Position numbers and translations under genes: made by a program. From Psychrobacter sp. DAB_AL43B (GTDB taxonomy: Bacteria > Pseudomonadota > Gammaproteobacteria > Pseudomonadales > Moraxellaceae): a DNA stretch of 64,000 bases. Positions within the stretch are counted from its first letter, which is position 1. Each line of letters opens with the position of its first letter. A model generated the notes under the pieces. The model ran no database searches, was not told where the DNA came from, and was given only the letters and a program-made list of their open reading frames with translations. Below, piece after piece: positions 5,455 to 41,909 of this stretch. The stretch lies in contig NZ_LT799838.1 in NCBI RefSeq assembly GCF_900168255.1, forward strand, positions 2,356,001-2,420,000, written 5' to 3'.

Positions 5455-5531
5455 GCAGCGGTAGTTCAGTTGGTTAGAATACCGGCCTGTCACGCCGGGG
5501 GTCGCGGGTTCGAGTCCCGTCCGCTGCGCCA
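5455..5531 (+). tRNA. tRNA-Asp (anticodon GTC)
   Basis: Complete cloverleaf of 77 nt: acceptor GCAGCGG pairs with CCGCTGC, the anticodon arm carries CCTGTCACG (anticodon GTC), T-arm GCGGGTTCGAGTCCCGT, and encoded CCA. Its 3' part from the anticodon stem onward is duplicated at 41815, so this gene is the insertion target of the genomic island. The intact functional copy is this one, at the left end. Confidence 0.97.
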
Positions 5532-5579
5532 TATTTAAAACGAATTTAAACTCTCGAGTTTAAGCAAGTTTCGCCTCAA
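5485..5579 (+). repeat. attL: 95-bp direct repeat in the tRNA-Asp 3' end
   Basis: Identical over 95 bp to 41815-41909. It starts in the 5' side of the tRNA-Asp anticodon stem and runs through the tRNA 3' end, the AT-rich flank ATATTTAAAACGAATTTAAA and the left arm of the tRNA terminator. Identity breaks at 5484 (G here, A at 41814) and at 5580 (G here, A at 41910). A duplicated tRNA 3' end is the standard footprint of integration by a tyrosine recombinase. Confidence 0.93.
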
Positions 5580-13692: not shown

Positions 13693-13753
13693 TTGCTAAT
13701 GCAAAAGCCATTCAGTTTATCAATACCAGATATCATCCATACGAGAGAAAACC

Positions 13754-15829: not shown

Positions 15830-18800
15830 CTAGCTAAGCAACCCGTTTTCAAGGTGCTTAGAAGCCTGTCTAACTGCATAGCCATCCGACTTTAATAAAT
15901 CATCCCAAATATCTAAGCATACATTCAAAATACCTTCATCCTCATCATCAACCGCTTCATCATATATTCTTTGCAGTATCTTAGTTAGTCTATCCATTTC
16001 ACTATGAACACTCTGTTTAGCTTCAGCGGATAAAGTAGATGTAGCTATTTCAGAGAATAACTGTAATAACATACTTTTATAGCCTTCTAGGTTTAAAACA
16101 TGATTCTCTAAAGCATAAAACAAGTGATATATCTTTCTATGTGCTGTTTGGGAGTTCATGTAAATATCTAATAGTTCCTCGGTAACTCCTTTATTCCAAA
16201 AGTTCTTCTCTCGAACAGAATGTAGCAAGTTATCTCTTACTTTCTGCGAGCTATCATTAATTAAGGATCTGTATACATTCACTAATTTGTGCTCTTGCTC
16301 TGCGTAATCGTCCACCGTTAGAAATTGAACTAGAACTTCGGCAATACCTAGCTTAACTGACTCATCAGCTGTTAAAACAGATGATACCTCATTCTCAAAT
16401 AAACCATTAAAAAGGTAGCGTGCAAAAACTTGTATGCCAGCCTGCTTACGAACCTCTTCATATTCAGAAATAAGCATGAGTTTAACTAATGCCACATACT
16501 GCTCTCTAAAGTCATCTGTAAAAGCTGAATTAAAAAAATGATAAGATTCATAAGCACAGCTCATTCTTAAGTCAGATTTACATAAATCTAGAAACCTTTG
16601 CAATGCATAATTTATGTCGTAATTTAAGAAAGGAGTCAATAATCTGACTGCTACTATTTTTACAGCCGGATGAGGATCATTTATAGCAGAGTCAATCAAA
16701 CTCAAATTATCCCGTGCATACTCTTCATTATCCCAAAATATTTTGGCAATACCACCGTATGCAATCCCTCTATAACAGTTTATAGAATTTTGCATTAGAC
16801 TCTCAGCAGTGGTGTATTCAGCATGATCTCCCTCTTTAGGGTCATATACATTGAGCTTGTTATTGTTAGGATTGGATGAGTGAAGAGCGATTCCAATAAG
16901 CTTATTAAGCATATCAGGATAGTCTATAATCTTTGGAGTATCTGCTAATAATCTTGTCAGTGCTTGGCTCTCATTAAAACCTTCAAAATGCCTAATAACT
17001 TTATAACGAAGGTCTAACGGGCAAGGTTGCCAGTTTTCCTTGAAATCTTTAGCTAAATTAGATGAATTGTTATCTGCTAATCCATAGCAAATATTTTCAA
17101 TAAACTCTTTATTAATATTCTTTGGCAGTGTTAATGCCAGTTTTGCAAATCTCGCAGGTTCGTTTTTTACTGCTGTACTCAAGCTTTGTGCAAACATTCG
17201 TATGCTAGACTCTGCAATCACATCAGTACTTACAGCTTTCATTTTCCATGTATCGAAGCGTTTCTCATCATTCAGTATGATTTTTTTCCAAGCTTTATCA
17301 GATAGTTTGTTTACTTTTATTAAAGGCGATGTGAGAACACCACCAAAAGTTGGGTCATGAGAATAAAAGTAAGTATCACTATAACCTTCAAATCGTCTTT
17401 GTAGAACATTATATAAGTCTATGGATCGTTTGCTAATACGATGATTATCAAGTTTATTGAGTAAGAAGTATTGGGCTTCTCCCCAATAACTTGTCCAAAA
17501 GTTTCCAAATTTTCTTCTTATTTCTAAAGCATATTTTATACTATCAATATTCTTGTTAAGACCAACATCAAATATTGCAAGTTCAAGATGGTTGAACGTT
17601 TCTTTCTCACAATGAGGCGAAAACTTTTCAATCAATTTCCCAGACAGCACCCATTTTGGCTCTTCATAATCATTCCCACAAGCTAACCTAGTAGTAGGAT
17701 TATCGAGTAGCCATTTAATAACTTGATCAGAATACTTAATAGTTAAGTTAAGCAGAAGATTTGCAATAATGTGCTCTACAACTGGATGCTTATTCGTTAA
17801 ATATAATGTCAGTAAATTGAATAGCTCATTTGGTTTATCTGTATATTGTTTACCTGCTTCGAAAAGGATACCTAATACACCTCTTATTAAAAAATCTCTA
17901 TGTTCATTAAATAGAAGTCTGTCTCTGTAAAGCCATATCCTTGTATAAGAGTTTTCATCAATCGAGCTACTAATTATTTTAAAAACCTGAGGCATTAACT
18001 TTTCAAGAACATCGTAAGGCAAAGCTTCTGAAATACTTTCTAAGTCTTCGATCTGACCTTCTCTCCATACCTTTCGATGTAGATAGTTATCTAACTCTTC
18101 AGATTCTTTAATCTCAAAACTAGAGTCTGTTAATTCTTCTTTATAACTTTCTATGATTAACTGTATCAATTCAATTGCCTTCCTTGGATGATTTTTTGAT
18201 AACTCATTCCAATTGATATAATTAACTGAACAACCTAGTTGTAAGAGCCTTTTACGTACTATAAACATCGCTTCTGAGTCGTCTTGGATATTCCAATTCA
18301 AAGCAGAGTAGCATCTATTATTCCATTGCTCAGATAAACCAATAAATGGCTCAATTTCCTTTATAACAATGCCAGGTGCTTTGTCAGCTATAGAAATTAA
18401 TAATCGAATAGCTAGATCCATTTGCGAGTCAGATCCATTTAGCCATCTAGAAATCACATTTTGTTCTGAAAGTACCTCGACTATTTGCGGGTGTCCAAAA
18501 CAAGCATGGTCAATAAAAGGCTGACTTAATTCTTCATTGTCTATTAGACTTATTATTAGGTGGCGTAATGGCGCTTTAATAGTTGTAACTTCACCAATCA
18601 CATTGATAGCTAAGTACTTAATATGAAAACGAATATCAGTACTATTGAGCAAAGCTAAAGCATTTTTACAAAACACTGATTGTTTAGATTGGGCCAATAG
18701 CTTCAGAGCATACTTAATGTGCTCTCTACGGGTGAGTGTTTGTTCAGACTTTGAACCAATCTCTTCAAGCAGCGCATCACTTGACCGTTGAGCGGTATCA

Positions 18801-20512
18801 AAGAGACGTTTTCCTAAGTGATAATCGAATAGTGCTTGATGCTGGAAGCTGATTTGATTCTCATGCTTATGCAGTATACCTACAGAGATTAGTGCCTCTA
18901 ATGCATTAGGGTTAGGATTGCTAAGCAAACTTATAGGTATAGAAAACTGCATATTTTGGCTTGCTTTTTCTACAAAATTATCAACAATTGAGTTAGCCAA
19001 ACTCGTATCAGTTAATATTTTACTCAGCTGTTTTATTCTATCTTCCCAGTACAAGCGAGTAAGGTCTATCTTACTGGTGAAGTCAGGATTGTTATGATTA
19101 TCTTTAATAATTCGTAAATATAAACTTAACCATATCGGAATTCTCAGAATAGACTGTTTAATAGGTGATAAAGAGTCATAGTTCTCGTAAGGGTCTAAAA
19201 TTTCTTTAACTTGCTCAGCAGGTAACTCTGATAATTCTATATGAGCAACCTTATCATTGAGATCTAATATCCAATGTTGCAACTGTGGATCTTCTTTTAA
19301 GTCAAAATCTCTACAGGCAAGTACCAAACAGATATCATGATTACTTTCTCTTAATTGAATAACTTGTCTGGCAATCTCCTGACATACTTGCAACGCATTA
19401 CTAGAGTGATTCGCTGTCCAACGTATTGCATCCAACTGATCTAAGATAATGACTGCTTTTGTATCACCCGCAAAAGTATTTAAGCAGAATACAGGTGAAT
19501 GAGTTAATCCTAAATCACGCCCAAATGTGTCGGCGTTTTTTTCAGGGCGATTTCTATCTAGTCGTATAGGCAAAGATATGTATTCTTGCTCATTAAGGTA
19601 ATTACAAAGCTGTAGTAGAAAAGCACTTTTACCCATACCTGCTTCTGCTTTGAGTAAGGTGATAGGATAGCTATTCATGAATTCAAGGCATTCTTCGAGT
19701 TCCGAACGTTTAATTAAGCTATCCTCAATGAGGAAGGGTTTTATAGTGGATTGAAAGTCACAATTAATCCTTTTTATCTCGGAAAACACCCTTTCATCAT
19801 TTTCATAAACTCTTAGATTAAATCCCCGCATCTGCATGTCATTCAGTAGTTGGGATGTAGTGATTGGCAAACGGAGTCTATTAGAGCTTATGGGATAGTT
19901 TTCTATGAAATCAAGAACATTGTTTGGTTTATCAAGAAATAACCGTTTAGCTATTTTAACGAGTTTGTTCTGTGATTCAGAGTTATTATGAAAAGCAACA
20001 ACTTCGAAGTATTTTAAAAAATTAATAGCTTTAAGAATATCAGGTTTTTTATCAATGTCTAAATCTAATCTATCACATAACTCTCTAAAAAGTTTACGAC
20101 GTCTTTCACTTTGGTTTACCTGCTCTTTGATAAAATCTTGAGGATCATCAGTCGTATTTTTAGCACTCAAACTTAGATGAGACAATTGTGTGAAAGACAA
20201 TGGAGAGACGATCTTAAAAGTACATTTATCTCTTTTAATTTGATAAAACGCTTTTTTTAGCACGCCAGCTTGATCAAGTCTTGATAATGTCCATACATCT
20301 GCATCACTATTGCTAGATTTACATTGATGAAACTCTCTGTGACCATCTATTGCTCGGATAATCAAATCTACGCCTATTTCATCTTTACCCAATGGCTCAA
20401 TGGTAACAGAAGCTATTTCTTCTTCAGCTAGCCTTAATAATTGCTCAGCAACCCAGTTTGACTCATAGCTATTGCCAAACTTATCTGCGAACCCACCACC
20501 TTCTAATGCCAT
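15830..20512 (-). CDS. Nuclease-STAND NTPase, Avs-like anti-phage protein
   Basis: Protein of 1560 residues. The N-terminal region (about 1-130) begins ALEGGGFADKFGNSYESNW and contains GVDLII...EFHQCKSS, the Asp...Gln-x-Lys arrangement of a PD-(D/E)xK nuclease of the Cap4/Mrr-like group. A STAND-type P-loop NTPase follows, with Walker A AEAGMGKSAFLLQL (about 285-298) and Walker B AVIILDQLDAIRW (about 352). The remaining 1000 residues are helical and repeat-like (HEAT/TPR style), the sensor arrangement of STAND proteins. Avs proteins with this plan bind phage terminase or portal proteins, tetramerise and degrade DNA. This gene has its own transcription unit: the minus-strand neighbour upstream ends in a terminator at 20600-20630. 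It is visibly AT-rich. Assignment to a particular Avs type cannot be made without alignment. Confidence 0.75.
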   Translation of the reverse strand: MALEGGGFADKFGNSYESNWVAEQLLRLAEEEIASVTIEPLGKDEIGVDLIIRAIDGHREFHQCKSSNSDADVWTLSRLDQAGVLKKAFYQIKRDKCTFKIVSPLSFTQLSHLSLSAKNTTDDPQDFIKEQVNQSERRRKLFRELCDRLDLDIDKKPDILKAINFLKYFEVVAFHNNSESQNKLVKIAKRLFLDKPNNVLDFIENYPISSNRLRLPITTSQLLNDMQMRGFNLRVYENDERVFSEIKRINCDFQSTIKPFLIEDSLIKRSELEECLEFMNSYPITLLKAEAGMGKSAFLLQLCNYLNEQEYISLPIRLDRNRPEKNADTFGRDLGLTHSPVFCLNTFAGDTKAVIILDQLDAIRWTANHSSNALQVCQEIARQVIQLRESNHDICLVLACRDFDLKEDPQLQHWILDLNDKVAHIELSELPAEQVKEILDPYENYDSLSPIKQSILRIPIWLSLYLRIIKDNHNNPDFTSKIDLTRLYWEDRIKQLSKILTDTSLANSIVDNFVEKASQNMQFSIPISLLSNPNPNALEALISVGILHKHENQISFQHQALFDYHLGKRLFDTAQRSSDALLEEIGSKSEQTLTRREHIKYALKLLAQSKQSVFCKNALALLNSTDIRFHIKYLAINVIGEVTTIKAPLRHLIISLIDNEELSQPFIDHACFGHPQIVEVLSEQNVISRWLNGSDSQMDLAIRLLISIADKAPGIVIKEIEPFIGLSEQWNNRCYSALNWNIQDDSEAMFIVRKRLLQLGCSVNYINWNELSKNHPRKAIELIQLIIESYKEELTDSSFEIKESEELDNYLHRKVWREGQIEDLESISEALPYDVLEKLMPQVFKIISSSIDENSYTRIWLYRDRLLFNEHRDFLIRGVLGILFEAGKQYTDKPNELFNLLTLYLTNKHPVVEHIIANLLLNLTIKYSDQVIKWLLDNPTTRLACGNDYEEPKWVLSGKLIEKFSPHCEKETFNHLELAIFDVGLNKNIDSIKYALEIRRKFGNFWTSYWGEAQYFLLNKLDNHRISKRSIDLYNVLQRRFEGYSDTYFYSHDPTFGGVLTSPLIKVNKLSDKAWKKIILNDEKRFDTWKMKAVSTDVIAESSIRMFAQSLSTAVKNEPARFAKLALTLPKNINKEFIENICYGLADNNSSNLAKDFKENWQPCPLDLRYKVIRHFEGFNESQALTRLLADTPKIIDYPDMLNKLIGIALHSSNPNNNKLNVYDPKEGDHAEYTTAESLMQNSINCYRGIAYGGIAKIFWDNEEYARDNLSLIDSAINDPHPAVKIVAVRLLTPFLNYDINYALQRFLDLCKSDLRMSCAYESYHFFNSAFTDDFREQYVALVKLMLISEYEEVRKQAGIQVFARYLFNGLFENEVSSVLTADESVKLGIAEVLVQFLTVDDYAEQEHKLVNVYRSLINDSSQKVRDNLLHSVREKNFWNKGVTEELLDIYMNSQTAHRKIYHLFYALENHVLNLEGYKSMLLQLFSEIATSTLSAEAKQSVHSEMDRLTKILQRIYDEAVDDEDEGILNVCLDIWDDLLKSDGYAVRQASKHLENGLLS

Positions 20513-20650: not shown

Positions 20651-20971
20651 TTACCTACCAACTGTAAGCTGCCCGCCAGAAAAACTTATACATGATTCGC
20701 AGAACCAATATGATTGTTTTCTGATATAAGGTATATCTGCTGGTACATCAAGTTGATACGGCCGTCCACAGTACTCACAGTGCACATCATCTAAGTAAGC
20801 CTGGCACTCCGCTAATACGCCGAACAAAATATGATAATCGATATGGTATTGTCTGCAGAGTATCTCTATATGTTCTACATAACGTCCATCATGCCCGTAT
20901 GCCCAATAATCTTCGCATAGTTGTATGTCGGACTGATCTGCATTAGCGCTAAAAATAAGTTTTAAGCTCAT
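20651..20971 (-). CDS. Small putative zinc-binding protein of unknown function
   Basis: About 106 residues starting at MSLKLIFS; GGAG lies 7 bases before this ATG, so it is preferred over the ATG four codons upstream. Two Cys pairs in the C-terminal half (HCEYCGRPY and WFCESCISF) about 30 residues apart suggest a zinc ribbon. The N-terminal half is acidic and helical, rich in Tyr, His and Asp. Family not recognised. It lies 31 bp downstream of the 92-residue gene in a two-gene unit closed by the terminator at 20600-20630. The unit is controlled from the region with CTRYAG boxes shared with the XRE gene. Confidence 0.65.
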   Translation of the reverse strand: MSLKLIFSANADQSDIQLCEDYWAYGHDGRYVEHIEILCRQYHIDYHILFGVLAECQAYLDDVHCEYCGRPYQLDVPADIPYIRKQSYWFCESCISFSGGQLTVGR

Positions 20972-21002
20972 GTTTATCTCCAAACCAAATAATTAACGTT
21001 AA

Positions 21003-21290: not shown

Positions 21291-21799
21291 CCTGTAGATT
21301 AATATTTACCCCTGTTAGTCGTAATGACTTTCTACAGATTAAATTATACATACATTTTGAGCTATTGCAACTGAAAATAACCTTCTATAGATCTTTTTGT
21401 TACTAAATAGAACATTTAACCTATTTGAGAAACTATAGTTTGCTGCGTATTATTTGTTGTAATAACTGATAAGCGCAGCGTTATCTTGGATTCTAAAAGG
21501 AGGAACGTTTATTTTTCTTCCTTAACTATCTCATAAAGGTCGCCCACTTCAATATCCAAATATAAACATAGCTTCTCGACAACTTCTAGATCCACTCTAG
21601 TGGCTTCTTCGTTATACATGCGTGTGATTGTGCCTCTGTTCACATCAGTATCTCTAGATACATCAGCAATCTTTAGTCTTTTCTCACCCATAATTCTAGA
21701 TAAATTGCACTTCACCATAACCTCCTCCATATTAAAATAACCTACTGTAGATAAAAATGTCTTGCAAAAGATTATTTTTAGTGTAAATTATGTTCTATA
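21291..21799. promoter_or_regulatory. Five dispersed TCTAYAG boxes, candidate operators
   Basis: A 7-base box TCTAYAG (core CTRYAG, near palindromic) occurs at about 21292-21298 (minus), 21331-21337 (plus), 21384-21390 (plus), 21743-21751 (minus) and 21792-21799 (plus). Three copies lie upstream of the small-gene pair, and two lie in the divergent region between the XRE gene and the excisionase-like gene. This is the expected layout for sites of the XRE regulator encoded between them, setting a switch between repressor and excisionase/integrase expression. Assignment of the binding protein is inference. The 227-bp gap 21282-21508 contains no gene. Confidence 0.5.
21509..21718 (-). CDS. XRE/Cro-type helix-turn-helix regulator
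   Basis: 69 residues. The start at ATG 21718 has GGAGGAGG immediately upstream; the ATG four codons earlier would place that sequence inside the gene. A compact HTH of the Cro/YozG type spans nearly the whole protein (IADVSRDTDVNRGTITRMYN is the helix-turn-helix), followed by VEKLCLYLDIEVGDLYEIV, typical of this small family. It is divergent from the excisionase-like gene at 21855, with two TCTAYAG boxes between. Likely represses the mobility genes and/or itself. Confidence 0.85.
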   Translation of the reverse strand: MVKCNLSRIMGEKRLKIADVSRDTDVNRGTITRMYNEEATRVDLEVVEKLCLYLDIEVGDLYEIVKEEK

Positions 21800-21854
21800 G
21801 CAGGTCATAAAGCTATCAGATAATAACACTTTAATCTTTAGTAAGGATTTTACT

Positions 21855-22070
21855 ATGAGTTATACCTATTTAACAACTGAAGAGCTGTCACAACGTATTA
21901 AATATGACAGCAAGACCATACGCAACCAGCTTAAAGATGCGGTATTCATTGAGGGCGTTCATTACATCAAACCCTTTGGAGGTAGAAAGATCCTTTTCAT
22001 ATGGCAAAAGATTGAAGAGCTGATGCTGACAGGCTACGACGATACCATTCCATTTGCAGCGGGAGTGTAA
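21855..22070 (+). CDS. Excisionase-like small DNA-binding protein
   Basis: 71 residues beginning TYLTTEELSQRIKYDSKTIR, a MerR/Xis-type winged-helix opening in which helix two would read DNA. AAGGA lies at good spacing before the ATG. It ends 2 bp before the integrase, so the two are certainly co-transcribed. The pairing of a small HTH protein with an integrase having a DUF3596-type N-terminus is the common xis-int arrangement. The directionality role is inferred from position. Confidence 0.75.
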   Translation: MSYTYLTTEELSQRIKYDSKTIRNQLKDAVFIEGVHYIKPFGGRKILFIWQKIEELMLTGYDDTIPFAAGV

Positions 22071-22072
22071 TC

Positions 22073-23248
22073 ATGGCGAGTATCAATAGCCGTAATGGCA
22101 ACCTTTATGTAGATTTCCGATACATAAATCAACGTTGTAGAGAGCAAACCTTACTGTCAGACACTAAGCCTAATCGAAAGCGTCTAGAAAATTTCGTTAG
22201 CAAAATGGAGGCAGACATTCAATTAGGTAGTTTTCGATATGAAAACTATTTTCCGCAAAGTAAAAAGCTTGAGCAGTTTCAAAGCTTAGAGCTTATGAGG
22301 TCAACGAATAGTCATAAGGACTCAAGCTCAGGCTTTGATAGTTTTAGCAAAGTTTGGTTAGAGGAGAAAAAGCCGGAATGGCGGGACTCTCAAATAAGTA
22401 ATGTGGAAGATATATTTAGAATTTACCTAATTCCTCATTTTAGCAATTTACCGCTAAATACCATTAGCAAAGCCAAAATCATGAATTTTCGAGGCAAGTT
22501 AGTCAAAGATGGTAATAACGGACGAACTTTATCAGCGTCTCGCATTAATCATATTATGACGCCATTACGTATGGTGCTGATCGAAGCCTCTGAGCGTTTT
22601 GATTTTGACAGCCCTTGGAAGAATATAAAACCACTCAGTGAGCCTAAAAGTAATGTCAGTCCTTTTACTCTAGAAGAGGTCATGCTGATTATCAATAACG
22701 TGAGAGCAGATTATAAGCCTTACTATATCGTACGTTTTTTTACAGGTATGCGTACAGGTGAGATTGATGGCTTGCCTTGGAGAAATATAGATTTTGAGCG
22801 CCGACAAATCATTATTGATCAGGCAGTCGTTAATGGTGTCATAGGCGAAACTAAAACCTCAGGTTCGAATCGTATTATTCAGATGAACCAACTGGTTTAT
22901 GATGCGTTAATTGGTCAGCAGAAACTAACTAAACATCAAAGTGAGTTCGTGTTCTGTACAAAAGCGGGTACCCCTTTAAATCATCGTAATGTGACAAAGC
23001 GAATTTGGTATCCGTTACTACGATATTTAGAGCTTGATAAGCGAAATCCTTACCAAAGTAGACATACGGCCGCGACGCTTTGGCTTGCTGCCGGAGAATC
23101 TCCTGAGTGGATTGCTGCACAAATGGGTCATAGCAACACAAAAATGCTATTCACAGTGTATTCTCGCTATGTGCCAAACCTTACTCGTCAAGACGGAAGT
23201 GCTTTAGATAAGCTACTGATAGCACGAGGAATATTGCAAAACATATGA
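22073..23248 (+). CDS. int: Tyrosine integrase with N-terminal arm-binding domain
   Basis: 391 residues. The N-terminal 65 residues (SRNGNLYVDFRYINQRCREQ) fit the DUF3596 arm-DNA-binding domain, followed by a SAM-like core-binding domain (about 95-195) and the catalytic domain. Catalytic residues visible: Arg in FFTGMRTGEIDGL (about 227), Lys in GETKTSGSNR, Arg-His in NPYQSRHTAAT (Tyr replaces the first box II His, usual in this subfamily), His in AAQMGHSNTKM and the nucleophile Tyr in FTVYSRYVPN. A complete, apparently functional enzyme and the best candidate for the recombinase that used tRNA-Asp, although it lies about 17 kb from either att site. The gene is followed by a terminator. Confidence 0.92.
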   Translation: MASINSRNGNLYVDFRYINQRCREQTLLSDTKPNRKRLENFVSKMEADIQLGSFRYENYFPQSKKLEQFQSLELMRSTNSHKDSSSGFDSFSKVWLEEKKPEWRDSQISNVEDIFRIYLIPHFSNLPLNTISKAKIMNFRGKLVKDGNNGRTLSASRINHIMTPLRMVLIEASERFDFDSPWKNIKPLSEPKSNVSPFTLEEVMLIINNVRADYKPYYIVRFFTGMRTGEIDGLPWRNIDFERRQIIIDQAVVNGVIGETKTSGSNRIIQMNQLVYDALIGQQKLTKHQSEFVFCTKAGTPLNHRNVTKRIWYPLLRYLELDKRNPYQSRHTAATLWLAAGESPEWIAAQMGHSNTKMLFTVYSRYVPNLTRQDGSALDKLLIARGILQNI

Positions 23249-23342: not shown

Positions 23343-25775
23343 ATGGCTTGTAACGGTGGCAGAATAATGGCTAATGAAGATAATCGCTTAAAACAGAGCA
23401 ATCATATTGAAAAATGGCTAAATTCACATATTTTAGAACTGGGTCATAATCATGAGATCGAAAGCCTGCTTATTGAGCTTACTTTCTTATTAGATACCAC
23501 CCCTTCTCATTACAAAATAGAGCTTAGAGACGAGCATCAATATTTATCTGCGTGGATTAAAAAACAACGTTCCAACTCAGACTTAATAGATCCTAAAAAT
23601 AGTCCTATTTACAATAATGGGATTCAAGACAAATCATTTTTACAAGAAGTTAGTGAACGCTATGTTATTGCGTTTCTAGCAAGCCGTGCTTCTTGCCTTA
23701 AAATCAATACATATCGCTCAGTTTACTTTCTACTTTGCCTAAAAATGGTTAAGTTAACAGACTATGAGAGCCGTATTAGGACAACCTTAAACGAATGCCG
23801 TTATCTGACAACCAAAGTTAGAAGCTTTTTAGTACCTTTTTTGCCAAATATTCTACAAACTCAGGGATTACAACAATTATGGCAGACACTTGAAGAAGGT
23901 AGAATTCAATCAACGCAACAAAATGATGTAAATAAAAAACTATCAAGCTACATTTATGAGTTTATTTTACCGATTGAAAACTGCTTTAAGAATGAATCTG
24001 GTATTACACGTAACGTCAAACAGGCTGAGAAGCTTGTTGATGGTTCTGAATCTATAGATGACACCACAGGGAACACGATTAGTGATTTAGTTTTAGTTAC
24101 AGAAGTGGTTAACGATAATAGCGCTTTTGAAGTAGAAGAACGTCAAGATGATGAAGAGCAGTCATTTGCGCAGGTGTCCATTACACAGCCTACTAATTAT
24201 TATTTGGATAGAGTACGAGCAGAGCAGCAAATAAATAGTCGCCATCAACGGACTATGAGTCAAACGACCGATGTGAACAATGCACATCCAGATGACATCA
24301 AGGTCTTAGTTAATAGCTTAATGCCTACGTTACTAAAATTGAGGTTAGAAAAGTTAAACGATATATATGATCAAGATAATATAAACATTGAGTTTGATAT
24401 CAATCATCAAGCAGAGCTCTATTTGCTAATGCTTTTATTGTCAGGGCTGCCTAATATATTCATCTCTGAAAACCTTAAATTAAGCTATCAGTCTTATAAG
24501 TATTCTTTAGAGTTCACACCGACCCGAAGCGTCATTCAAGAGAGCTGGGATGCTAGTCTGTGTGCTGATAACAGAGACAATCTGACGCTTTTTTTTCCTG
24601 AAATTGTAGGAAGGTTGCATTACTGCATTGCAAACGATATAAGTTCAAAAGTTTTTGAACAGGTTATACAGCAAGCAAGTAATCAGCTTAAAAATATTAA
24701 TAAAGAGCATAGAACCAGGCTGACGATAAACAAGGTTAAAAACTATATTTCCCACTTTTTAACTCAGAAAGGACGTGATACTGCTTTGATAGACGTGCTA
24801 ACGGAACAGCCCATCAATCATCAATCAGCGCTTCCGTATTTTAATGTCAGTCAATACGATTTATATAGTTGCCAGTATGATTTTATTGAACACTTAACTA
24901 ATATGCTTGACGAGGATCTTTCTTGTGGTAGATATGCATGTCAGTTTTTTACATTGCTAGAAGATAAATTAACTGGGTATTGGGAAAAACAAACGGGCAG
25001 TGCTTTAGCTATCAGTGAAATACGTTTAAAGGATGTGGTATCTACACTGCGTGATAGATTACAAACGCAGATTGATGATAGGCATCTTGATGATTTCGAA
25101 TCAATGGTTGAGATGCACAATACGTTTACTGACTATTTATATATTATGCTATCAATATCTAGTGGTTATCGTCCCGTTAGTGAACCATTTGGTAGGCTCG
25201 ATCATATTGATACCCTTACTAAGAAATTTTTTATCAGTGATAAAGAAAACCATCAAGATACGCAAGGACGGTTTATTTATCTACCAGATACGGCAAATGA
25301 GCAGATTAAAAAGTATGTTCACTTTTTGCAGAAGAACGCTAGTATTCTATCCAGACTAGATAATCCGCTTGGTCATATTTACCAAAGTATCCTTAAAAGT
25401 AATATTGGATTAATCGTCTATCTTAATTTTGACAAGGAAACCGATAGGATTACCGAAGTCTCTCTCAACAAAAACTATCTTCATGAACGACTGTCTAAGC
25501 ATATCAATCTACCTATGAATTGGCATCGTCATTTTATCCGTTCGTTCCAACCCATTGAAGTAGGTCTATATTCTACAAATGAGCATTCAACGCATGAAGT
25601 ATTTAGTCACGATTTGATTGGCGCATGGATGGGACATGCTGACGCTCTTGGTTTTGATTTCTATAATCGATATAGTGGCCTTAAACGTAGCGAATTGAGA
25701 CGATTTTCGGTGTACTTGGATCAAGTGCTTAAGAATATTGGTTTTAAGACGATGACACTGGAGAGAAGAAAGTGA
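23343..25775 (+). CDS. Large tyrosine-recombinase-like protein, trio gene 1
   Basis: 810 residues (802 if the ATG at 23367 is used; GGTGGCAG precedes that one). The C-terminal 220 residues carry a tyrosine-recombinase-like signature: box I Arg in SSGYRPVSEPF (about 608), an H-x-x-R-like element in NWHRHFIRSF (about 727), then GAWMGHADALGF and a candidate nucleophile in FYNRYSG (about 763-775). The remaining 580 residues are not recognised and include an acidic linker near 230-290. The stop overlaps the next gene's GTG start (GTGA), so the pair is translationally coupled. The catalytic boxes diverge from the canonical consensus, so it may be a structural or partner subunit rather than an active enzyme. 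Confidence 0.7.
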   Translation: MACNGGRIMANEDNRLKQSNHIEKWLNSHILELGHNHEIESLLIELTFLLDTTPSHYKIELRDEHQYLSAWIKKQRSNSDLIDPKNSPIYNNGIQDKSFLQEVSERYVIAFLASRASCLKINTYRSVYFLLCLKMVKLTDYESRIRTTLNECRYLTTKVRSFLVPFLPNILQTQGLQQLWQTLEEGRIQSTQQNDVNKKLSSYIYEFILPIENCFKNESGITRNVKQAEKLVDGSESIDDTTGNTISDLVLVTEVVNDNSAFEVEERQDDEEQSFAQVSITQPTNYYLDRVRAEQQINSRHQRTMSQTTDVNNAHPDDIKVLVNSLMPTLLKLRLEKLNDIYDQDNINIEFDINHQAELYLLMLLLSGLPNIFISENLKLSYQSYKYSLEFTPTRSVIQESWDASLCADNRDNLTLFFPEIVGRLHYCIANDISSKVFEQVIQQASNQLKNINKEHRTRLTINKVKNYISHFLTQKGRDTALIDVLTEQPINHQSALPYFNVSQYDLYSCQYDFIEHLTNMLDEDLSCGRYACQFFTLLEDKLTGYWEKQTGSALAISEIRLKDVVSTLRDRLQTQIDDRHLDDFESMVEMHNTFTDYLYIMLSISSGYRPVSEPFGRLDHIDTLTKKFFISDKENHQDTQGRFIYLPDTANEQIKKYVHFLQKNASILSRLDNPLGHIYQSILKSNIGLIVYLNFDKETDRITEVSLNKNYLHERLSKHINLPMNWHRHFIRSFQPIEVGLYSTNEHSTHEVFSHDLIGAWMGHADALGFDFYNRYSGLKRSELRRFSVYLDQVLKNIGFKTMTLERRK

Positions 25776-28700
25776 ATCAGCGTGCATCTGGTATTGAAAA
25801 GAGAGAGAAAAATAGAAGTGTAAATTTAGAAAAAAGCCGTAAACAAGCGCAACGTTTGGTTAAAAAGCACGTTGATTTTGATTTGATTACACAATCAGAA
25901 GATCAGCAAGAAGTTTTTAATATTATGTGGGAGAAGTTTGACAATGAATTAAAAAAACATAAAAGTTTTCGTAACTATCGCAGCTATGTCCACGGATATA
26001 ACGAAGCCATCCGTTATTGCCAAGATTATATTGAAGATCATGACATCAATGTAGGCTTTCCAAAATATATTGTGGTCTCTGATCGACCAAAGAGTTTTCG
26101 TACTGAGTCATGGTTTATAGACGGACAAAAAATACTTAGATTTTATATTAACTGGATGGATGATCTAACTAATAAAAAACAACTTGTATTAGAAGATCTG
26201 ATGTTGTCAATGATTTTTCATAGCGCAGTACTAAAAGCACCAGTATTACAGACCATTTTAAATAGCGTTATTGATGGTTCATTAAATATAGAAACTATTT
26301 TTGGTTTGCCTTCAATCAGTATCATAGTTGACGATACGACGTATCATACGAATACCATTATAGACTCAAAAGCGGTACATCAAGCTCGAGTATTTTTATC
26401 ACCATTAACCGCACGATTAATCGACTTATACCATCAGCAACCAAAATTTGATCAAAAAACGACTGGTGCTGAAGTCAAGGACTTATATACCAGTCTACGA
26501 ATGCGGCTATCGAATAGTCCGACTCCATTGGATATGAGGTTGAGCAATTTTTTGAGTGGGTCAATATATGTGTTGGAGGACTACCTTGGTATAGATATTC
26601 CTGAGCACACATGGTATCTGATTATTGGTGAGGAGCATACATACAGTCTACCAAGAGATAATTGGCAATCTATTATTTATAACATCAGTCATCACGCTGA
26701 CATGCATTATGACTTAAAGCCCCATACATTAAACGTTAGCGTGACCAAAATCAAAAAACCTAATCACTCCATAGCTATAGAAATCGCAAAATTATTTAAA
26801 AGAAAAAAAGATCAAAAAGTCTCAAAAACTACGTTTACAGCAGACTTAGAGCAACTTTACCAAGGTTTGCTGTCTGATAGCGCCCCCTTGAATGAACTGG
26901 CTATTGTAGGATGGCTTTTGTCTAAAACTGATAACTGTCAAGTCAGTAGCATTCAGACCTATAGTAATATGATCACTTATCGCTGGTTAGTTGTAACTGA
27001 AAGTGTGGATTTTTATGACTGTTCTACTGAGGACTTTGAGTGTATTTATAATGAATTGATTGAACTTGGTAAGACTGAAAAAGCTAAGAACACCATAGCT
27101 GGTCATATTGACGACATTCATCGTTATATGGTTAATATTTTTAATATTGAACCCATCGCACCGCTATCTTCTGCAACTCGAGCGCATCATAAAACAGGCT
27201 ATTTATCAGAGACCATGTTTCAAGCTGTTCTAACTAATGCTCAAAACCTTAAGGTAGCTAAGGATGAGTCAGAGGCGATACAGCTTTCATTGATATTAGC
27301 TCAACGCTGCGGGCTTAGAATAGGCGAAATAGTTAAAATCAGGCTAAGAGATGTCGCCCAGTCATCAGCTTATCTAGAAGTGCGTGATAATAAATATGGA
27401 AATAACAAAACCAGCTCTGCGCTACGGCGAGTACTCTTAAATCAGCTATTGACTGACTCAGATATGTTACTGCTTAAAAGAGTAGTAATCAGGCGGTGTC
27501 AAGGAACAGGAGACACTCTCATAGCTAGTCAATCTGGTAGACCTTATCTGTCAGGTGAGATGTCACGTATTTTGACAGACTTGATTAAAGGTACTACTGG
27601 TCTTGCATATTTGACAACACATCATTTAAGGCACAGCTGTCTGACCAATTTTCAGCTCATGTCTTTTTTATATGATAACAGCTATCGTTTTGATGATTAT
27701 GAACATGACAGCTTGCAGGCGCTAAAAAAATTATTGCCCTATGATGAAGACAAGGCACGTGAAATATTGAACTATATCGAAACATCGATACAGTATAAGA
27801 AAACATATGCATTAGCTGGCATAGCGGGTCATGCAAGCCCAAGTACTACTTTCGCTTCTTACGTCCATTTGGTAGATATTGAGCTAGGGCTGCTTCTTTA
27901 TCACACAAATTTTATGCTACAACCTGAACACAGTGACGTGCTAGATGTGCCTAGACGTAGAAAAAGCGAGCTTAAAAACGATCCGATTGCTTTGAATGGC
28001 TATTTCATTAAGAAAATAAAGCTCAAGCCGCTTATGAGGCCTAAAATCAAAAGCCAGCTTATAGACCCAGTAGGCGTAAAGCATAAAAAACTTAAGAAAT
28101 ATGCGTTTGATGAAGTACGCCAAGTTCTGAATGCTTACACGAAAAAAGGAGACTATACGCATACTGAGTTAATAGATATTTTTGAGATAGAACCGCATGT
28201 TTTTGACGGTTGGCTTAGTAATGCTCAGCTCCTTAGGAATCATGCTGATTTTCAAACCATCCATAATAAACCAAGATTATTTATGTCCGAAAATAGTGAT
28301 CAGCTCTTGCCGACTTTAGATAGATTTGTTGAAGATAGAGACTTAATGAAGAGAATGACTAATAAATTTCGAGAATTGTACAAGGTGGATAACAAAGATT
28401 TCGTTAATCAGTTTGTGTTATATACGCTCAAAAAATCTCAATATCATAAAAACCATATTGGGTTTAATGACTCCGACATACTAAGAGATTATCTAAAAAC
28501 TCTTCTAAAGCTAGTATATAAAAAAGACATACGCTTAAAAATTTATAATTACGAACAAGCAAATAGCGACGACTTAAAACAATGGCGTTCAAACATTAAA
28601 AGTTTTCCAAAATCTCAACTAGAATTCGTGCAGCAGAGTAGCATTCAGAATGTAGGTGCACAATATCAGAAAAAAATACGTGTTGATTTATCACTAGTTA

Positions 28701-28843
28701 GCCAAACCGAAAATGATAGGATTGAAAAAAGAACCGAGTCTGATCTGCCTATCAGTGCATGGACGGTAAGAACGCTACAAATATTTTGTCACTATGTATT
28801 TATTATGATTGGTGATCTTACACCAAGTAATCATCCTCAATGA
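25772..28843 (+). CDS. Large tyrosine recombinase, trio gene 2
   Basis: 1023 residues with a GTG start overlapping the previous stop by 4 bp and GGAGAGAAG upstream. A well-preserved tyrosine recombinase catalytic domain sits in the middle: AQRCGLRIGEIVKIRLRD (box I Arg about 514), THHLRHSCLTNF (HxxRH about 617), AGIAGHASPSTTFASYVH (His and nucleophile Tyr about 686-698). Roughly 450 N-terminal and 320 C-terminal residues surround it; the C-terminal part is strongly basic and may bind DNA. The size is three times that of an ordinary integrase. It forms a coupled three-gene unit resembling in plan, though not in length, Tn554-type modules (two tyrosine recombinases plus a small accessory protein). 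Confidence 0.75.
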   Translation: MNQRASGIEKREKNRSVNLEKSRKQAQRLVKKHVDFDLITQSEDQQEVFNIMWEKFDNELKKHKSFRNYRSYVHGYNEAIRYCQDYIEDHDINVGFPKYIVVSDRPKSFRTESWFIDGQKILRFYINWMDDLTNKKQLVLEDLMLSMIFHSAVLKAPVLQTILNSVIDGSLNIETIFGLPSISIIVDDTTYHTNTIIDSKAVHQARVFLSPLTARLIDLYHQQPKFDQKTTGAEVKDLYTSLRMRLSNSPTPLDMRLSNFLSGSIYVLEDYLGIDIPEHTWYLIIGEEHTYSLPRDNWQSIIYNISHHADMHYDLKPHTLNVSVTKIKKPNHSIAIEIAKLFKRKKDQKVSKTTFTADLEQLYQGLLSDSAPLNELAIVGWLLSKTDNCQVSSIQTYSNMITYRWLVVTESVDFYDCSTEDFECIYNELIELGKTEKAKNTIAGHIDDIHRYMVNIFNIEPIAPLSSATRAHHKTGYLSETMFQAVLTNAQNLKVAKDESEAIQLSLILAQRCGLRIGEIVKIRLRDVAQSSAYLEVRDNKYGNNKTSSALRRVLLNQLLTDSDMLLLKRVVIRRCQGTGDTLIASQSGRPYLSGEMSRILTDLIKGTTGLAYLTTHHLRHSCLTNFQLMSFLYDNSYRFDDYEHDSLQALKKLLPYDEDKAREILNYIETSIQYKKTYALAGIAGHASPSTTFASYVHLVDIELGLLLYHTNFMLQPEHSDVLDVPRRRKSELKNDPIALNGYFIKKIKLKPLMRPKIKSQLIDPVGVKHKKLKKYAFDEVRQVLNAYTKKGDYTHTELIDIFEIEPHVFDGWLSNAQLLRNHADFQTIHNKPRLFMSENSDQLLPTLDRFVEDRDLMKRMTNKFRELYKVDNKDFVNQFVLYTLKKSQYHKNHIGFNDSDILRDYLKTLLKLVYKKDIRLKIYNYEQANSDDLKQWRSNIKSFPKSQLEFVQQSSIQNVGAQYQKKIRVDLSLVSQTENDRIEKRTESDLPISAWTVRTLQIFCHYVFIMIGDLTPSNHPQ

Positions 28844-28858
28844 CTTAGGAATAACATA

Positions 28859-29443
28859 ATGAACTTGGCTTCTAAAACCATAATTCCAAACAGTAAGACA
28901 CAGTTTAGTTTTCACAGTTTAGCTAAAAATCTATATAAAATTATTAATGAAGCCTATTTGTTTGGTGACCAACAGGATTTTTTAGCCGATATGACTCTGA
29001 GACCCTTGCCTCATAGAGGACTGCCAATTAACAATATATCGATGATTAGCCAAGGATCAGGGACAAATGCTTATCGTATAATAGGAGGCTGCTTTAATCC
29101 CATATTTGATATCAATAACATAAATACTGAAAATACGTTGTTCCACAGTTATAGTCACTCTAAAAAAAGTAGCAAGGGTGAGTTCGAACAAGAGATTATA
29201 GATTTTATCTATATGGACTTTATTAGATCTATCTCAATTTTATCCTTAAAAAAGCCTGGGGCTATGGAGCCTCAACTACGGGTGCTTAGCAAAGAGTATA
29301 AGAGTGACATCTGGAACGCATTGCTTGATAGCAACAAAAGCTATTTACGCCAGATTGATTTTGCAAACTTGCTAGATACAGAGCGCGATACGATAAGCAA
29401 GCAGTGCAAGTCCACTGTTAATAAGAAAAATGGCAGTAATTAG
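28859..29443 (+). CDS. Hypothetical protein, trio gene 3
   Basis: 194 residues, starting 15 bp after trio gene 2 with AGGAATAA upstream, so in the same transcript. No recombinase motif is visible. It opens with a basic helical region, then RIIGGCFNPIFDINNIN and a C-terminal helical, charged part. Not recognised. By position it corresponds to the small third protein of Tn554-like recombinase modules; that is an analogy only. AT-rich like the two genes before it. Confidence 0.65.
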   Translation: MNLASKTIIPNSKTQFSFHSLAKNLYKIINEAYLFGDQQDFLADMTLRPLPHRGLPINNISMISQGSGTNAYRIIGGCFNPIFDINNINTENTLFHSYSHSKKSSKGEFEQEIIDFIYMDFIRSISILSLKKPGAMEPQLRVLSKEYKSDIWNALLDSNKSYLRQIDFANLLDTERDTISKQCKSTVNKKNGSN

Positions 29444-29924: not shown

Positions 29925-31736
29925 ATGTATACAAGTATTTTTGGTCAGAATAGCGCAGGACATGGGTGGCGGTTTTTATCGATCAGTGTGGCAAGTATTT
30001 TGATGAGCATGGCCGCTCAGGCTATCACGCCTGAGCAATACCAAGAGCAGCGTAGTGAAGCCTTAAAGCAGCAACAGCTCGTTAATCCCAATGTTACGAT
30101 CGATACCAATGTCTTTAAGCCTGCGCCTTCAGCCTCTATCACACCTTCTGCTTCTCAGGGTACTGACCCAGCCTCTCTTCCTTGTTTTGATATCAATCAC
30201 ATCTATCTAACGGGCGAGCTGAGCGAAAAGTTCACTTTTGCATTGACCCCTTATACAATGGGTAAGTCCTCCTTATTTGGCAGCTGTCTATCCGTCAATG
30301 ACATCAATCAGCTGGTCACCAACGTTCAAAACCGTATTATTGAAGAAGGTTACGTGACTACTCGCGTCTTGGTACAAAACCAAAATCTAAAATCTGGCAA
30401 TCTATTCCTCACCCTCATTCCGGGTCGTATTGATCAGATAACGGCGGTTGATATCAAAGCCAGTCGTCCTATTTATGTCGATAGCCGCCTCAATAGTGGG
30501 GGCAACCCTGCCAACTTTGCGCCTGCCATGCCAATGCAGTCCGGTGATTTATTAAACGTTCGTGATATAGAACAAGCGCTTGAGAACTTTAAGCGTGTCC
30601 CTACGGCCGATGCCGATTTCTCTATTGCCCCAAGTAGCCGTATGAGCACGCCGGGTTACAGTGATATCCAAGTCAAATGGCAGCAAGACAAGCGCTGGCG
30701 CTTATCTGCCTCTGTTGATGACTCAGGACAAGAGAGCACGGGTATCTATCAAGGTAACGTAACCCTTTCACTAGACAACCCAACTTGGCATAACGATTTG
30801 TTGTACCTCTCTTATAACCATGATCTTGATGGCGGTAATGACAAGAATGATGGCAGTTGGGGCTATAACGTTGGGTATGTATTGCCCATTGATAATACCC
30901 AACTGACCCTCACGCACAGCGGCTACAACTATGATCAGACGGTTGCCGGTGCCAATCAAGATTATGTCTATAGCGGTGAGTCTTATAACACGGAAGCATT
31001 AGTCAGCCATTTGGTTCACCGTGACAACCACAGTAAAACCTACCTAAAAGCGGGCGGTTATGCCAAGCAACAAAACAACTTCATCGACGATACTGAAGTT
31101 GAAGTACAGCGTCGCAAAACCTCAGGGTATAAAGCAGGTATTGGTTACGAGACCATCATTGGTAAAACCCAATGGATCGGCGATGTGATCTATCAGCGTG
31201 GTACGGCTGCCTTTAATGCCATCAGTCCGCCTGAAGCCTTATTTAATGAAGGCAGTGCGCGTGCCGGTATCATCAAAACCAACATTGATGTCAACCAACC
31301 TATTAAGCTTGCTGATAAAGCACTCAATTACCATGCAGCGTTTAAAGGGCAATATGCGACAGAGGCATTGACACCCAATGAGCGCTTTAGCATTGGTGGT
31401 CGCTATAGTGTACGCGGCTTTGATGGTGAGCGTAGCTTAAGTGGCGATCATGGTGCTTTACTAAGACAAGAGCTGAGTGCCTATCTAGGAGATAAGCCGC
31501 ATGCCGTTTATGCCGTTTATGCCGGTATTGATGCTGGTTATGTCAAGCTCGACAATGCTGCGCAAGATGATCTGCTGCTTGGTAATCATCTGGTTGGCGG
31601 AGTCGTTGGCGTTAAAGGTTATGTGACGCCGATTAGAACCAGCTATGACTTATTTGCCGGTTACCCATTAGCACAGCCTGACAATTTTAGTGATAAAGAA
31701 TGGGTAACGGGTTTTAGCTTGGGTTGGCAGTATTAA
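29925..31736 (+). CDS. cdiB: Two-partner secretion outer membrane transporter (CdiB/TpsB)
   Basis: 603 residues. Exports the CdiA exoprotein across the outer membrane (Omp85/TpsB family). A signal peptide is followed by a periplasmic helix region (EQYQEQRSEALKQQQL), POTRA domains (about 75-250, including TTRVLVQNQNLKSGNLFLTL) and a beta-barrel whose conserved loop-6 motif is seen as GGRYSVRGFDGERSLSGDHG. The protein ends in GFSLGWQY with a C-terminal aromatic residue, as expected for a barrel. GGTGGG precedes the ATG. It is followed 80 bp later by cdiA, the usual gene order. Confidence 0.93.
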   Translation: MYTSIFGQNSAGHGWRFLSISVASILMSMAAQAITPEQYQEQRSEALKQQQLVNPNVTIDTNVFKPAPSASITPSASQGTDPASLPCFDINHIYLTGELSEKFTFALTPYTMGKSSLFGSCLSVNDINQLVTNVQNRIIEEGYVTTRVLVQNQNLKSGNLFLTLIPGRIDQITAVDIKASRPIYVDSRLNSGGNPANFAPAMPMQSGDLLNVRDIEQALENFKRVPTADADFSIAPSSRMSTPGYSDIQVKWQQDKRWRLSASVDDSGQESTGIYQGNVTLSLDNPTWHNDLLYLSYNHDLDGGNDKNDGSWGYNVGYVLPIDNTQLTLTHSGYNYDQTVAGANQDYVYSGESYNTEALVSHLVHRDNHSKTYLKAGGYAKQQNNFIDDTEVEVQRRKTSGYKAGIGYETIIGKTQWIGDVIYQRGTAAFNAISPPEALFNEGSARAGIIKTNIDVNQPIKLADKALNYHAAFKGQYATEALTPNERFSIGGRYSVRGFDGERSLSGDHGALLRQELSAYLGDKPHAVYAVYAGIDAGYVKLDNAAQDDLLLGNHLVGGVVGVKGYVTPIRTSYDLFAGYPLAQPDNFSDKEWVTGFSLGWQY

Positions 31737-31816
31737 AGCCTAATTCTAAGCGCTATCAAATTTCTTAGCTCAAAAAAATATTTGTCATCAACAATGTTAT
31801 ACCTAAGGACATCATT

Positions 31817-34800
31817 ATGAACAGTGGTTGCTACCGAGTTATCTTTAATAAAGCCCGTGGTATGCTCATGGTGGTGTCAGAGGCGGCACGCTCTCAAGGC
31901 AAAACAGGCAATCCTGCTAATGGCGGTAGTGAAATCAGCCAAGTAGCAGGTGCTTCGCAAACGGCTGCTCAAACCAATAGTACCTATCAAGGCGGTCAGC
32001 TTGTAGCGCTGCGCTCGCATGTATTGCTAGCGCTAGGGCTTGCCACCATCGTTGCTAGCAGCGTCAGTATCAGTAATAGCGCTTATGCTGATGCCACGAG
32101 TATTGTCGCTGATCGTAACGCTGCTGCCAATCAACAAGCAACCATATTGAAGTCTTCGAACGGCACCACTCAAGTGAATATTCAAGCCCCAAGCGCGGCT
32201 GGTGTCTCGCGCAACGTCTTTAGCAAGTTCGATGTCGGTCAAGATGGTGCCATCCTAAATAACAGTCGCACCAATGCTCAAACCCAGCTTGCTGGTTGGG
32301 TTGAGGGTAATCCTTATCTGGCTCGCGGTGAAGCCCGCGTTATTCTAAATGAGGTCAACTCAAGTGACCCAAGTCGCCTAAGCGGCTACACAGAAATTGC
32401 AGGCGGACGAGCTGAGCTGGTGATTGCCAACCCTGCTGGTATCAGTTGTGCCGGTTGCGGGTTTATTAATGCCTCTCGTACGACATTGACCACCGGTAAT
32501 GTTTTGATGGATCAAGGCAAGCTCACTGGCTTTGATGTGACAGGTGGTAAGGTTCGTATAGACGGTGATGGTTTAGATACCAGCGGCTCTGACTACACGC
32601 AGATATTAGCAAAGACTTCTGAGATTAATGCTGCTGTCTACGCTAAGAATTTAGATGTCATCACTGGTAGCAATAAAGTCAGCTATGAGGCTGATGCTCA
32701 AGACACTGTCATCAGTTCAGCGAATAGTAATGCTAGCAACACTACAACCGGTGTGGCGCTTGATGTGTCGGCACTTGGGGCGATGTATGCAGGAAAAATC
32801 CGTCTGATCGGTACCGATAAAGGCATGGGCGTGACCAATGCTGGTAGCATCATTGCAAGCTCTGGTGGTCTGCAGTTAGACAATGATGGTAATTTGATTA
32901 ACTCAGGGAGCCTGATTGCTAATCAAGGTAAAGTCGCTGTCAATGTTGGTAGCAACACTATCAATAACTCGGGCACTATCGCCAGCAGTCGAGATGCGGC
33001 AACGCTCAGTAGCAGCTCGCTTGATAATAGCGGGGTGATTAGTAGCCGTGATACTTTAAGTTTACAGCAAACGGGCCTTATCACTAACTCAGGTGAGATC
33101 GCCACTGGTAGCTTTGATGTAAAAGCTAACGCTCTAAACAATAGCGGTAAATTATTGCAAACTGGCAGTGGTCAGTTGGCAATTGATACCAGCGCTTTAG
33201 TTAATCAACAAGGCGGCATTATTGGGCAAGATTTATATGCTGACGCCAGCATTCCGCCTACAGTCATTCCTACCAAAAAGCCACCAACAACTGCGACTAA
33301 TGGCAGCAGTGTGGGTATAGATAATAACGATACGACGCAGCCGTCTGAGCCCAATCCTGTACCACTACCTGTTATCTCCCGTGATGGCAATATCAGCGCC
33401 AGTAATGTCACTAACACTGGTAGTATTTATAGTAATGGTAAAATTAACATCGCTACCGACACTGTGGTTAACCAAGGCAAATCCAGCTTAGCCGTCAGTC
33501 GCTTAGATATTGCTAATAACGGCAGTCTAACCAATAACGGTAGCCGTTTGCAGCTTGAGAACATCGACTGGCAGTTGGCAAACTTCGATAACAGTAAAGG
33601 TCAAATCACAGCGACTAATACTATCGCTATTACTTCTGCCGATCAGGTTAATAATAATAAAGGTACTATCGAGGCTGTCGGTAATATTAAGCTTAACGCA
33701 CAAAACATGCTAGATAATACCAGTGGTTCAATACGCTCTAATGGCACCATAACCACGCAAATCTCAGCGTTTGATAACACTGAAGGAGAGCTTAGCAGTC
33801 AAGGGGATATCACTCTTGATAGCCGTGGTAACTTGACTAATAATAAAGGTCGTATTCAAAGCGATAAAAATCTAACTATTAATGCCAAAGGCTTTAGCAA
33901 TACCGATGGCACTATTATCGGTGTACAACGTGCTAATATTAGTGTCACTGATGACATCACTATCAATAGCAGTAACAATAATATTCAAGGCACTACTCTT
34001 GCCTTAACTAGCCGAGGCAATTTTACCAATAGCAGCAAACTGGCGGCTCAAGACGCGCTCACTATTAGCGCCAATAGTATTGACAATAAGCTTGGAGGTG
34101 AGCTGATTAGTAATGGCATAACTGAACTCAATGCAAAAACTGATATCAATAATCGCGGATTAATTAACGGCTCGAATACCTACTTAGATGCTGGTAGTAC
34201 TGTCAATAATTATAGTGGTGGTCGTATCTACGGCGATCAGGTAGCAATAGCGGCTAACACGCTCAATAATACTCCAGACGCCATTACTAATACTGATAAC
34301 TCAACTCCTGCGCCTGTCATCGCGGCCCGCAATCGCCTAGATATCGGCGTCACTACCCTAAACAATAATCCCAATCAGGCACGCGCTGGTAAGTTTAATA
34401 CAGACTTTAATGGACAAGCTCGTCTGCTGAGTAATGGCGAGCTGCATATCGGTGGCGCTTTAGATGCGAATCATCAAGCCATGGGCCGTGCCACTACTGT
34501 GACCAACAAAGGCGCTTCTATCGAGTCTGTCGGTGATATGAGTGTCAGTACAGATCTGCTTAACAATGTGAATGCGGACTTTAGAAAAAAGACCGTTTTT
34601 GTTCGTGGCGACAAAGTTGTTGAATACTCTCCTGCAAATCAAACCACTAGATATGATAAAGATGATATCGAAATTTATGTTCATGGTTGGGATGGTGATT
34701 GGGAGAAGACGTTAAGAACGGCGGACGGTGACTATAATGATTATGAGAAGTTTGAGTACGACGCCAAATTGTATAAAGATGAAACGCTTAGCAGTGATGC

Positions 34801-41814: not shown

Positions 41815-41909
41815 GCCTGTCACGCCGGGGGTCGCGGGTTCGAGTCCCGTCCGCTGCGCCATATTTAAAACGAATTTAAACTCTCGAGTTTAAGCAAGTT
41901 TCGCCTCAA
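41815..41909 (+). repeat. attR: 95-bp direct repeat of the tRNA-Asp 3' end
   Basis: Exact copy of 5485-5579. The sequence to its left (ATATGGTGGGTCTA) does not rebuild the 5' half of a tRNA, so this is only a partial tRNA-Asp and not a functional gene. It marks the right boundary of the island. Confidence 0.92.

Follow-up and report, generated by a model that had tools for sequence, protein, structure and literature searches.

A recurrent gene trio of a giant tyrosine recombinase, a recombinase-like partner and a small protein in Psychrobacter islands and on Acinetobacter plasmids

The trio and its recurrence

The genes described here lie in a stretch of 64,000 nucleotides from Psychrobacter sp. 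DAB_AL43B (contig NZ_LT799838.1, positions 2,356,001 to 2,420,000), which is called the window below. The genome is 3.31 Mb in one contig, and the named close protein relatives are from Psychrobacter. Three adjacent genes of the window, which we call T, B and S and together the trio, encode two large recombinase-related proteins and a small protein:

23343..25775, plus strand: T (gene 1), 810 residues, ATG start; tyrosine-recombinase-like, with a C-terminal pocket of R610, K634, H730, R733 and H765
25772..28843, plus strand: B (gene 2), 1023 residues, GTG start; tyrosine recombinase with long N- and C-terminal extensions
28859..29443, plus strand: S (gene 3), 194 residues, ATG start; small protein

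The open reading frame (ORF) listing reproduced the three positions given in the original prediction, which had been made from the sequence alone, as well as the 4-base overlap of the T and B frames and the 15-bp gap between B and S. PF00589 of Pfam matches B above the cut-off at residues 499-626. For T and S, Pfam gives no match below E 0.1 and NCBIfam none below E 0.001, and neither protein is matched significantly in PADLOC or PHROGs. Thus, the family libraries leave T and S unnamed, and S is indeed unrecognised, as had been claimed.

Relatives were sought in 96 genomes, 60 of them from the genus and the own genome included. B was matched at E<=0.001 in 39 of these genomes, many of them through the recombinase core only. 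Among 33 loci with relatives of the trio, the genes stand in the order S-T-B in 29, which corresponds to 28 of 32 distinct places because the loci L034 and L039 overlap. The claim that the three genes form a unit found in other genomes therefore holds, and T and B are not always split from each other in the homologues. In one of the remaining loci no S was found (L032), and three others contain gene pieces (L050, L052 and L055), at least two of them cut by contig ends. Thirteen of the 33 loci helped to build the profiles; among the other 20, all three genes were found in 17, one of which overlaps a training locus. Typical relatives have a T of about 770 and a B of about 1050 residues. The close Psychrobacter relatives of the window show the order T-B-S behind an integrase gene, int391, unlike the S-T-B order seen elsewhere.

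Besides many Psychrobacter islands, the trio was seen on Acinetobacter plasmids, on one plasmid each from a Vibrio and an alphaproteobacterium, and in an Aeromonas record. B-like matches were found in 206 Acinetobacter plasmid records, and all seven B matches that were inspected lay inside a trio. A T profile run on evenly drawn samples gave matches in 13 of 369 genomes at the level of the class and in 25 of 398 at that of the phylum (the own genome is in both), where many matches are partial and some fall in ORFs of 1157-1872 residues that may encode other proteins.

Catalytic residues of B and T

B retains a complete active site. In 36 aligned sequences, the window included, R516, K546, R620, H687 and Y697 are present in 36/36 and H617 in 35/36. 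Likewise, 14 mostly distant B proteins keep all catalytic positions save one H617. These counts bear out the full catalytic set that had been predicted for the second gene.

T shows another pattern. All 27 close T proteins (window included) have R610, K634, H730, R733 and H765, and 22 of them have Y774. In 25 diverse T proteins, R610, K634, R643, R729, H765 and S778 are invariant, H730 is found in 24 and R733 in 19, and the tyrosine in only six. Because R610, K634 and H765 are invariant in these diverse copies and the tyrosine is mostly gone, the T family appears, as judged from the alignments, to be maintained as a pocket and to tend toward loss of the nucleophile. The window T itself has every catalytic position of a tyrosine recombinase, including Tyr774. 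The original prediction had called the boxes of gene 1 degenerate; they are more than that, with R610, K634 and H765 kept in 25/25 and the tyrosine kept in the window copy. S778, a serine four residues past the lost tyrosine, is present in all 25 diverse proteins. The AlphaFold model of T has a mean predicted local distance difference test score (pLDDT) of 70.4 and a predicted template modelling score (pTM) of 0.53, and its low-confidence stretches include residues 1-18, 209-310 and 766-780.

Regarding S, about 54 C-terminal residues of the window protein align with S proteins encoded upstream of T elsewhere (hhalign probability 88%, E 3e-6). One distant S protein has a sub-threshold match to an Xre-like helix-turn-helix (HTH) domain.

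A sharp left site on Acinetobacter plasmids

Alignments of trios like that of pACI-55cf break repeatedly at two positions, one about 165 bp upstream of S and the other immediately past B, as seen in the best 60 of 222 records. From the left break onwards, the first 23 bases are the same in seven trio copies, which stand behind five different flanks. These flanks are a YhfG module (L072, L082), an EamA gene (L081), an interrupted ISAcsp5 (L084, L085; of the L085 trio, the stretch examined covered S alone) and two further ones (L079 and L080). In L073, an eighth copy, the start is a variant and lies within an IS4 gene, which makes a sixth flank, and the site was seen in 8 of 12 Acinetobacter copies. 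The insertion points are visible from an intact ISAcsp5 (L090) and from an intact dps-IS4 arrangement (L089). For the EamA flank, four other loci (L076, L084-L086) run on into one common different sequence, and 12 of 13 records with this flank depart from the L081 sequence at the left site. The target sequence beyond the EamA junction was not found in pE47_002, of which 58.6 of 59.7 kb were covered. The record CP119217 of A. soli was at first taken for an unoccupied form of the YhfG-flanked site; this was dropped, since an IS66 gene begins about 120 bp past the break. In L020 and L021, the 15 bases that precede the trio insertion point in ISAcsp5 (L084/L090) recur about 300 bp behind S in another context.

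Related sites were also found without the trio. The trio-free toxin modules HipA-HTH and hypothetical-Fic-YhfG begin with related sites in the same orientation, and the HipA-type site stands behind three different flanks. A 240-bp stretch that opens with the HipA-type site occurs at 388 places in 200 Acinetobacter plasmid records. Between L081 and L082, the left side switches exactly at the site and the right side remains similar, a pattern that would be compatible with modules being gained or lost on one side. These modules recall pdif/dif modules, which are toxin modules bounded by short sites on the same Acinetobacter plasmids, but the trio-linked site is AT-rich, is found on the left side of every module and matches the trio start.

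The plasmid junctions might also have been made by XerC/D, insertion sequences or homologous recombination, with the trio as a passenger or a decaying relic. We consider this very unlikely. Acinetobacter plasmids are indeed known for XerC/D dif modules and changes driven by insertion sequences, and the consulted part of a study of GR13 plasmids names HipA- and Fic-like genes and tyrosine recombinases (PMC9455709). Some trios are damaged: T is interrupted in G034 (L025), and one B copy (G021) and the fragments in G048 contain a stop. Yet frames and catalytic residues of the trio proteins persist at distances down to about 15-25% identity, and the left junction is exact in the seven copies with five flanks. 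We also count against a passenger that the left site is presumably unlike the pdif consensus (no search for pdif was made).

The trio in tRNA-Asp islands of Psychrobacter

In the window, the trio lies in an island at a tRNA-Asp gene, with the following features:

5455..5531, plus strand: tRNA-Asp, the integration target of the surrounding island
5485..5579, plus strand: left copy of a 95-bp exact direct repeat, which starts inside the tRNA-Asp gene; probable attachment site of the island
41815..41909, plus strand: right copy of the repeat, an exact match to the left copy
20651..20983, minus strand: z110, a 110-residue protein with no function assigned
22073..23248, plus strand: int391, an ordinary arm-type tyrosine integrase of 391 residues, directly upstream of the trio on the same strand

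Other genomes show a similar setting. A tRNA-Asp stretch is matched on both sides of the trio in G011 and G005, and in G032 there is one match about 640 bp behind the trio. In the cases seen, the trio thus sits within tRNA-Asp islands, as far as these matches indicate, and mostly not at their extreme edge. In L031 and L002, tRNA-like 3' fragments were noticed by eye some 180-260 bp upstream of S, the one in L002 resembling tRNA-Asp, so that some trios are at the edge of a tRNA island.

The trio is linked to int391. Copies of int391 at least 78% identical were found in 11 of 96 genomes, and in 10 of these the trio, or at least T, follows on the contig. In the eleventh (G032), int391 closes one contig and T opens another. 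In nine loci that were laid out, int391 is 78-98% identical to that of the window, and identity drops to about 35%, 34% and 24% for T, B and S. In G047 and G045, fragments of a close B open a contig, and these two genomes lack a close int391. Another int391-like subfamily, 53-55% identical, occurs commonly in Psychrobacter and at times adjoins an S-T-B trio (G036, G044, G045, G046). In 11 of the 33 loci, or 10 of the 32 distinct places, a z110 relative lies close to the trio.

Between the 95-bp repeats there are also possible defence genes. A type I restriction-modification set R, S and M with PADLOC matches lies at 9242-15280 on the plus strand. At 15830-20512 on the minus strand, a 1560-residue protein has a weak nSTAND NTPase match, a match to the PADLOC candidate PDC-M54A (E 1e-17) and HEAT-like repeats; this STAND-like protein is probably an anti-phage sensor. 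Elsewhere, BREX genes stand behind trios, annotated as such in L073 and guessed from ORF sizes alone in L039, L040 and L044, and a Cmr6-like gene is near another trio.

Given these neighbours, the trio might instead be carried as cargo by tRNA-Asp islands, perhaps as an anti-phage system made from recombinase folds, and int391 alone would move the island. Besides the defence genes, the faster divergence of T, B and S compared with int391 is in its favour; defence genes often diverge fast. But the complete recombinase active site kept in B, as well as the own sharp left end and exact junctions of the Acinetobacter trio, which plain cargo would not need, make this improbable. A defence role, which the original prediction had offered, found no direct support beyond the vicinity of defence genes: no PADLOC model matched T, B or S at E<=0.01, and the trio is therefore not a known anti-phage system in that collection.

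Comparison with known multi-recombinase elements

We compared the trio with one locus of strand-biased circularizing integrative elements (SE; pAQU1) and one GMT locus, and with GInt, Tn554 and recombinase-in-trio (RIT) elements by their descriptions. SE, as described in the part consulted, have the genes intA-tfp-intB-srap (PMC10214605). The likeness lies in the composition, namely, an ordinary recombinase, a large one, a recombinase-like protein whose active site is incomplete and a small protein, and in sharp ends at a few chosen targets. SE-6945 is reported to use a site in an IS3 gene too (PMC10214605). A difference is that Tfp is reported to be without the RHRY residues, whereas T keeps the pocket and loses mainly the tyrosine. 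SE have imperfect inverted repeats at both ends; for the trio, a sharp left site was seen on Acinetobacter plasmids, and no right end was found. The SE proteins of pAQU1 (545, 614, 671 and 161 residues, with roles assigned by gene order) gave no BLAST match to T, B and S at E<=1, and hhalign probabilities were 1.6% or less for T and S and 12.6% at most for B (against IntA). An identity with SE was therefore rejected: the composition fits and, for the pAQU1 locus, the sequence does not.

GMT (GmtY, GmtZ, GmtX) also combine recombinase genes with a small gene in islands with defence cargo. The GmtX model NF040692 of NCBIfam did not match the window S or the distant S proteins that were scanned, while it matched a true GmtX at E 3e-62. 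The genes beside that GmtX (441 and 908 residues, taken as GmtY and GmtZ by position) gave no profile hidden Markov model match with T and B at E<=10 and hhalign probabilities of at most 2%. The early idea that the trio is a GMT was dropped because neither the curated model nor the one real GMT locus gave a match. The genome G207 (L071) has a GMT locus plus T-family matches elsewhere.

GInt (ginABCD) share with the trio three recombinase-like genes and a small gene at one end of an island and a variable cargo, according to the part of the report consulted (PMC5385486). Tn554 and RIT elements, in the descriptions seen, likewise have two or three tyrosine recombinases that act together. The protein sizes of Tn554-type elements differ from those of the trio, and RIT elements have three ordinary-sized recombinases in a row, compared with 810, 1023 and 194 residues here, the third protein being without a recombinase match. 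The earlier statement that neither size plan fits is thus correct. In outline the trio resembles SE, GInt and GMT; as far as sequence tells, it is neither a GMT nor an SE by the one-locus tests, and it is set apart from GInt, Tn554 and RIT by description only.

The trio could nevertheless be a described class of multi-recombinase island, above all GInt or a very divergent SE or GMT, that has drifted and that excises the whole island together with int391. We regard this as unlikely, if worth serious consideration. The composition of one ordinary recombinase, two recombinase-like proteins and one small protein is alike in the parts consulted (PMC10214605, PMC5385486), and GInt families are reported at only 24-40% identity in some comparisons, with a GinC that lacks one catalytic residue (PMC5385486). 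That residue is the first arginine, as reported, and T retains the corresponding R610 in 25/25. Furthermore, gene order and sizes differ (for GInt by description), and the SE and GMT loci show no similarity past the recombinase core, in addition to the unmatched GmtX model. Homologues belonging to a characterised family were thus not encountered in the one GMT and one SE locus compared. No description of the trio was found in the open-access literature, which is searchable by text and not by sequence, or in the four family libraries, which is not proof of novelty.

Proposed role and mechanism

We propose that the trio serves a family of mobile islands and plasmid modules as their DNA-recombination core, with a pair of an active and a silent recombinase, and we give this a probability of roughly 55%. 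A role in mobile DNA, as suggested at the outset, is likely. At the sequence level, the trio is a recurring unit that has a full catalytic set in B and a partial one in T, and that has a sharp left site with exact junctions. In favour of the proposal are the S-T-B recurrence, the residues kept in B and T, the linkage to int391 in 10 of 11 genomes and the left site with its six flanks. Two of these flanks are interrupted insertion sequence genes, and related sites start the two trio-free modules, one of them behind three flanks.

Several observations weigh against it. Tyr774 is retained in the window T, so its silence does not follow from the sequence. No recognised left site was present in four of the 12 Acinetobacter copies (L004, L074, L075 and L083), and none was found in the window at up to 6 mismatches. 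On the plasmids, neither a right end nor a target duplication was found; inverted repeats that may lie behind B were noticed by eye and are not claimed. For the interrupted ISAcsp5, the far half is missing from all of plasmid pApiHCG62c; for the interrupted IS4, it was not found at a right junction in pPUMA0052_1, where only an inverted copy beside dps was seen (50001-73524, 23.5 kb, was outside the search). Other recombinases, XerC/D included, are reported in the literature consulted to act on such plasmids. Six of nine Psychrobacter loci have a conserved leader between int391 and T, even where T is about 35% identical (L020, L021 and L025 differ), and because of this conservation, no trio-specific junction or terminus between int391 and T was seen in the nine loci. 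Some genomes with a trio, G017 and G030 among them, have no int391-family match at E<=0.001. The suggestion of a nested element with boundaries of its own in the window is not supported: there is no terminus between the trio and int391, the leader is conserved and the whole lies within the tRNA-Asp island with its 95-bp repeats.

If the trio is such a recombination core, B would use its tyrosine to cut and rejoin DNA. T most likely takes its place next to B on a site of the same type, where its conserved pocket would grip the phosphate, usually without a cut. In this proposal, B and T would bind the site jointly, and cutting would fall mainly on the strand that B holds, leading to strand-biased exchange. 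Since T would usually not cut, the complex would be asymmetric and mainly one strand would be exchanged, as in SE, for which strand-biased exchange was measured according to the part of the report consulted (PMC10214605). Alternatively, B may donate its tyrosine into the pocket of T. S would act as a small helper, perhaps in binding to the site or in setting the direction. The trio may work with int391 in or beside tRNA-Asp islands in Psychrobacter, and on Acinetobacter plasmids it would be tied to the short site just upstream of S and might move trio-free modules in trans. With a T that keeps its pocket and tends to lose its nucleophile beside a fully active giant B, strand choice in multi-recombinase islands becomes directly testable.

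A bolder version is doubtful: the trio would be the engine of a new platform that gathers cassettes, with the left site as its attachment site and the HipA-HTH and Fic-YhfG modules, which carry sites of the same kind, gained and lost beside it, and in the active/silent pair T would give the pocket and B the sole tyrosine. Should the sites of the trio indeed move toxin and defence modules, genes would be shuffled by a route separate from integrons and pdif modules.

Other features of the trio-bearing plasmids and the island

Two plasmids, pE47_002 (L081/L083) and one of A. johnsonii HAMBI_0097 (L004/L085), each have a further trio or, at the least, a further S gene. In the window, a small HTH repressor-like ORF on the minus strand and an AlpA-like ORF just before int391 were recognised by eye at 21510-22070, as in ordinary tRNA islands. 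Near 30 kb of the window, the G+C content climbs from roughly 0.35 to 0.47. At 29925-40024 on the plus strand, between the repeats, ORFs of 603 and 2735 residues resemble, by eye, a two-partner-secretion or contact-dependent inhibition pair.

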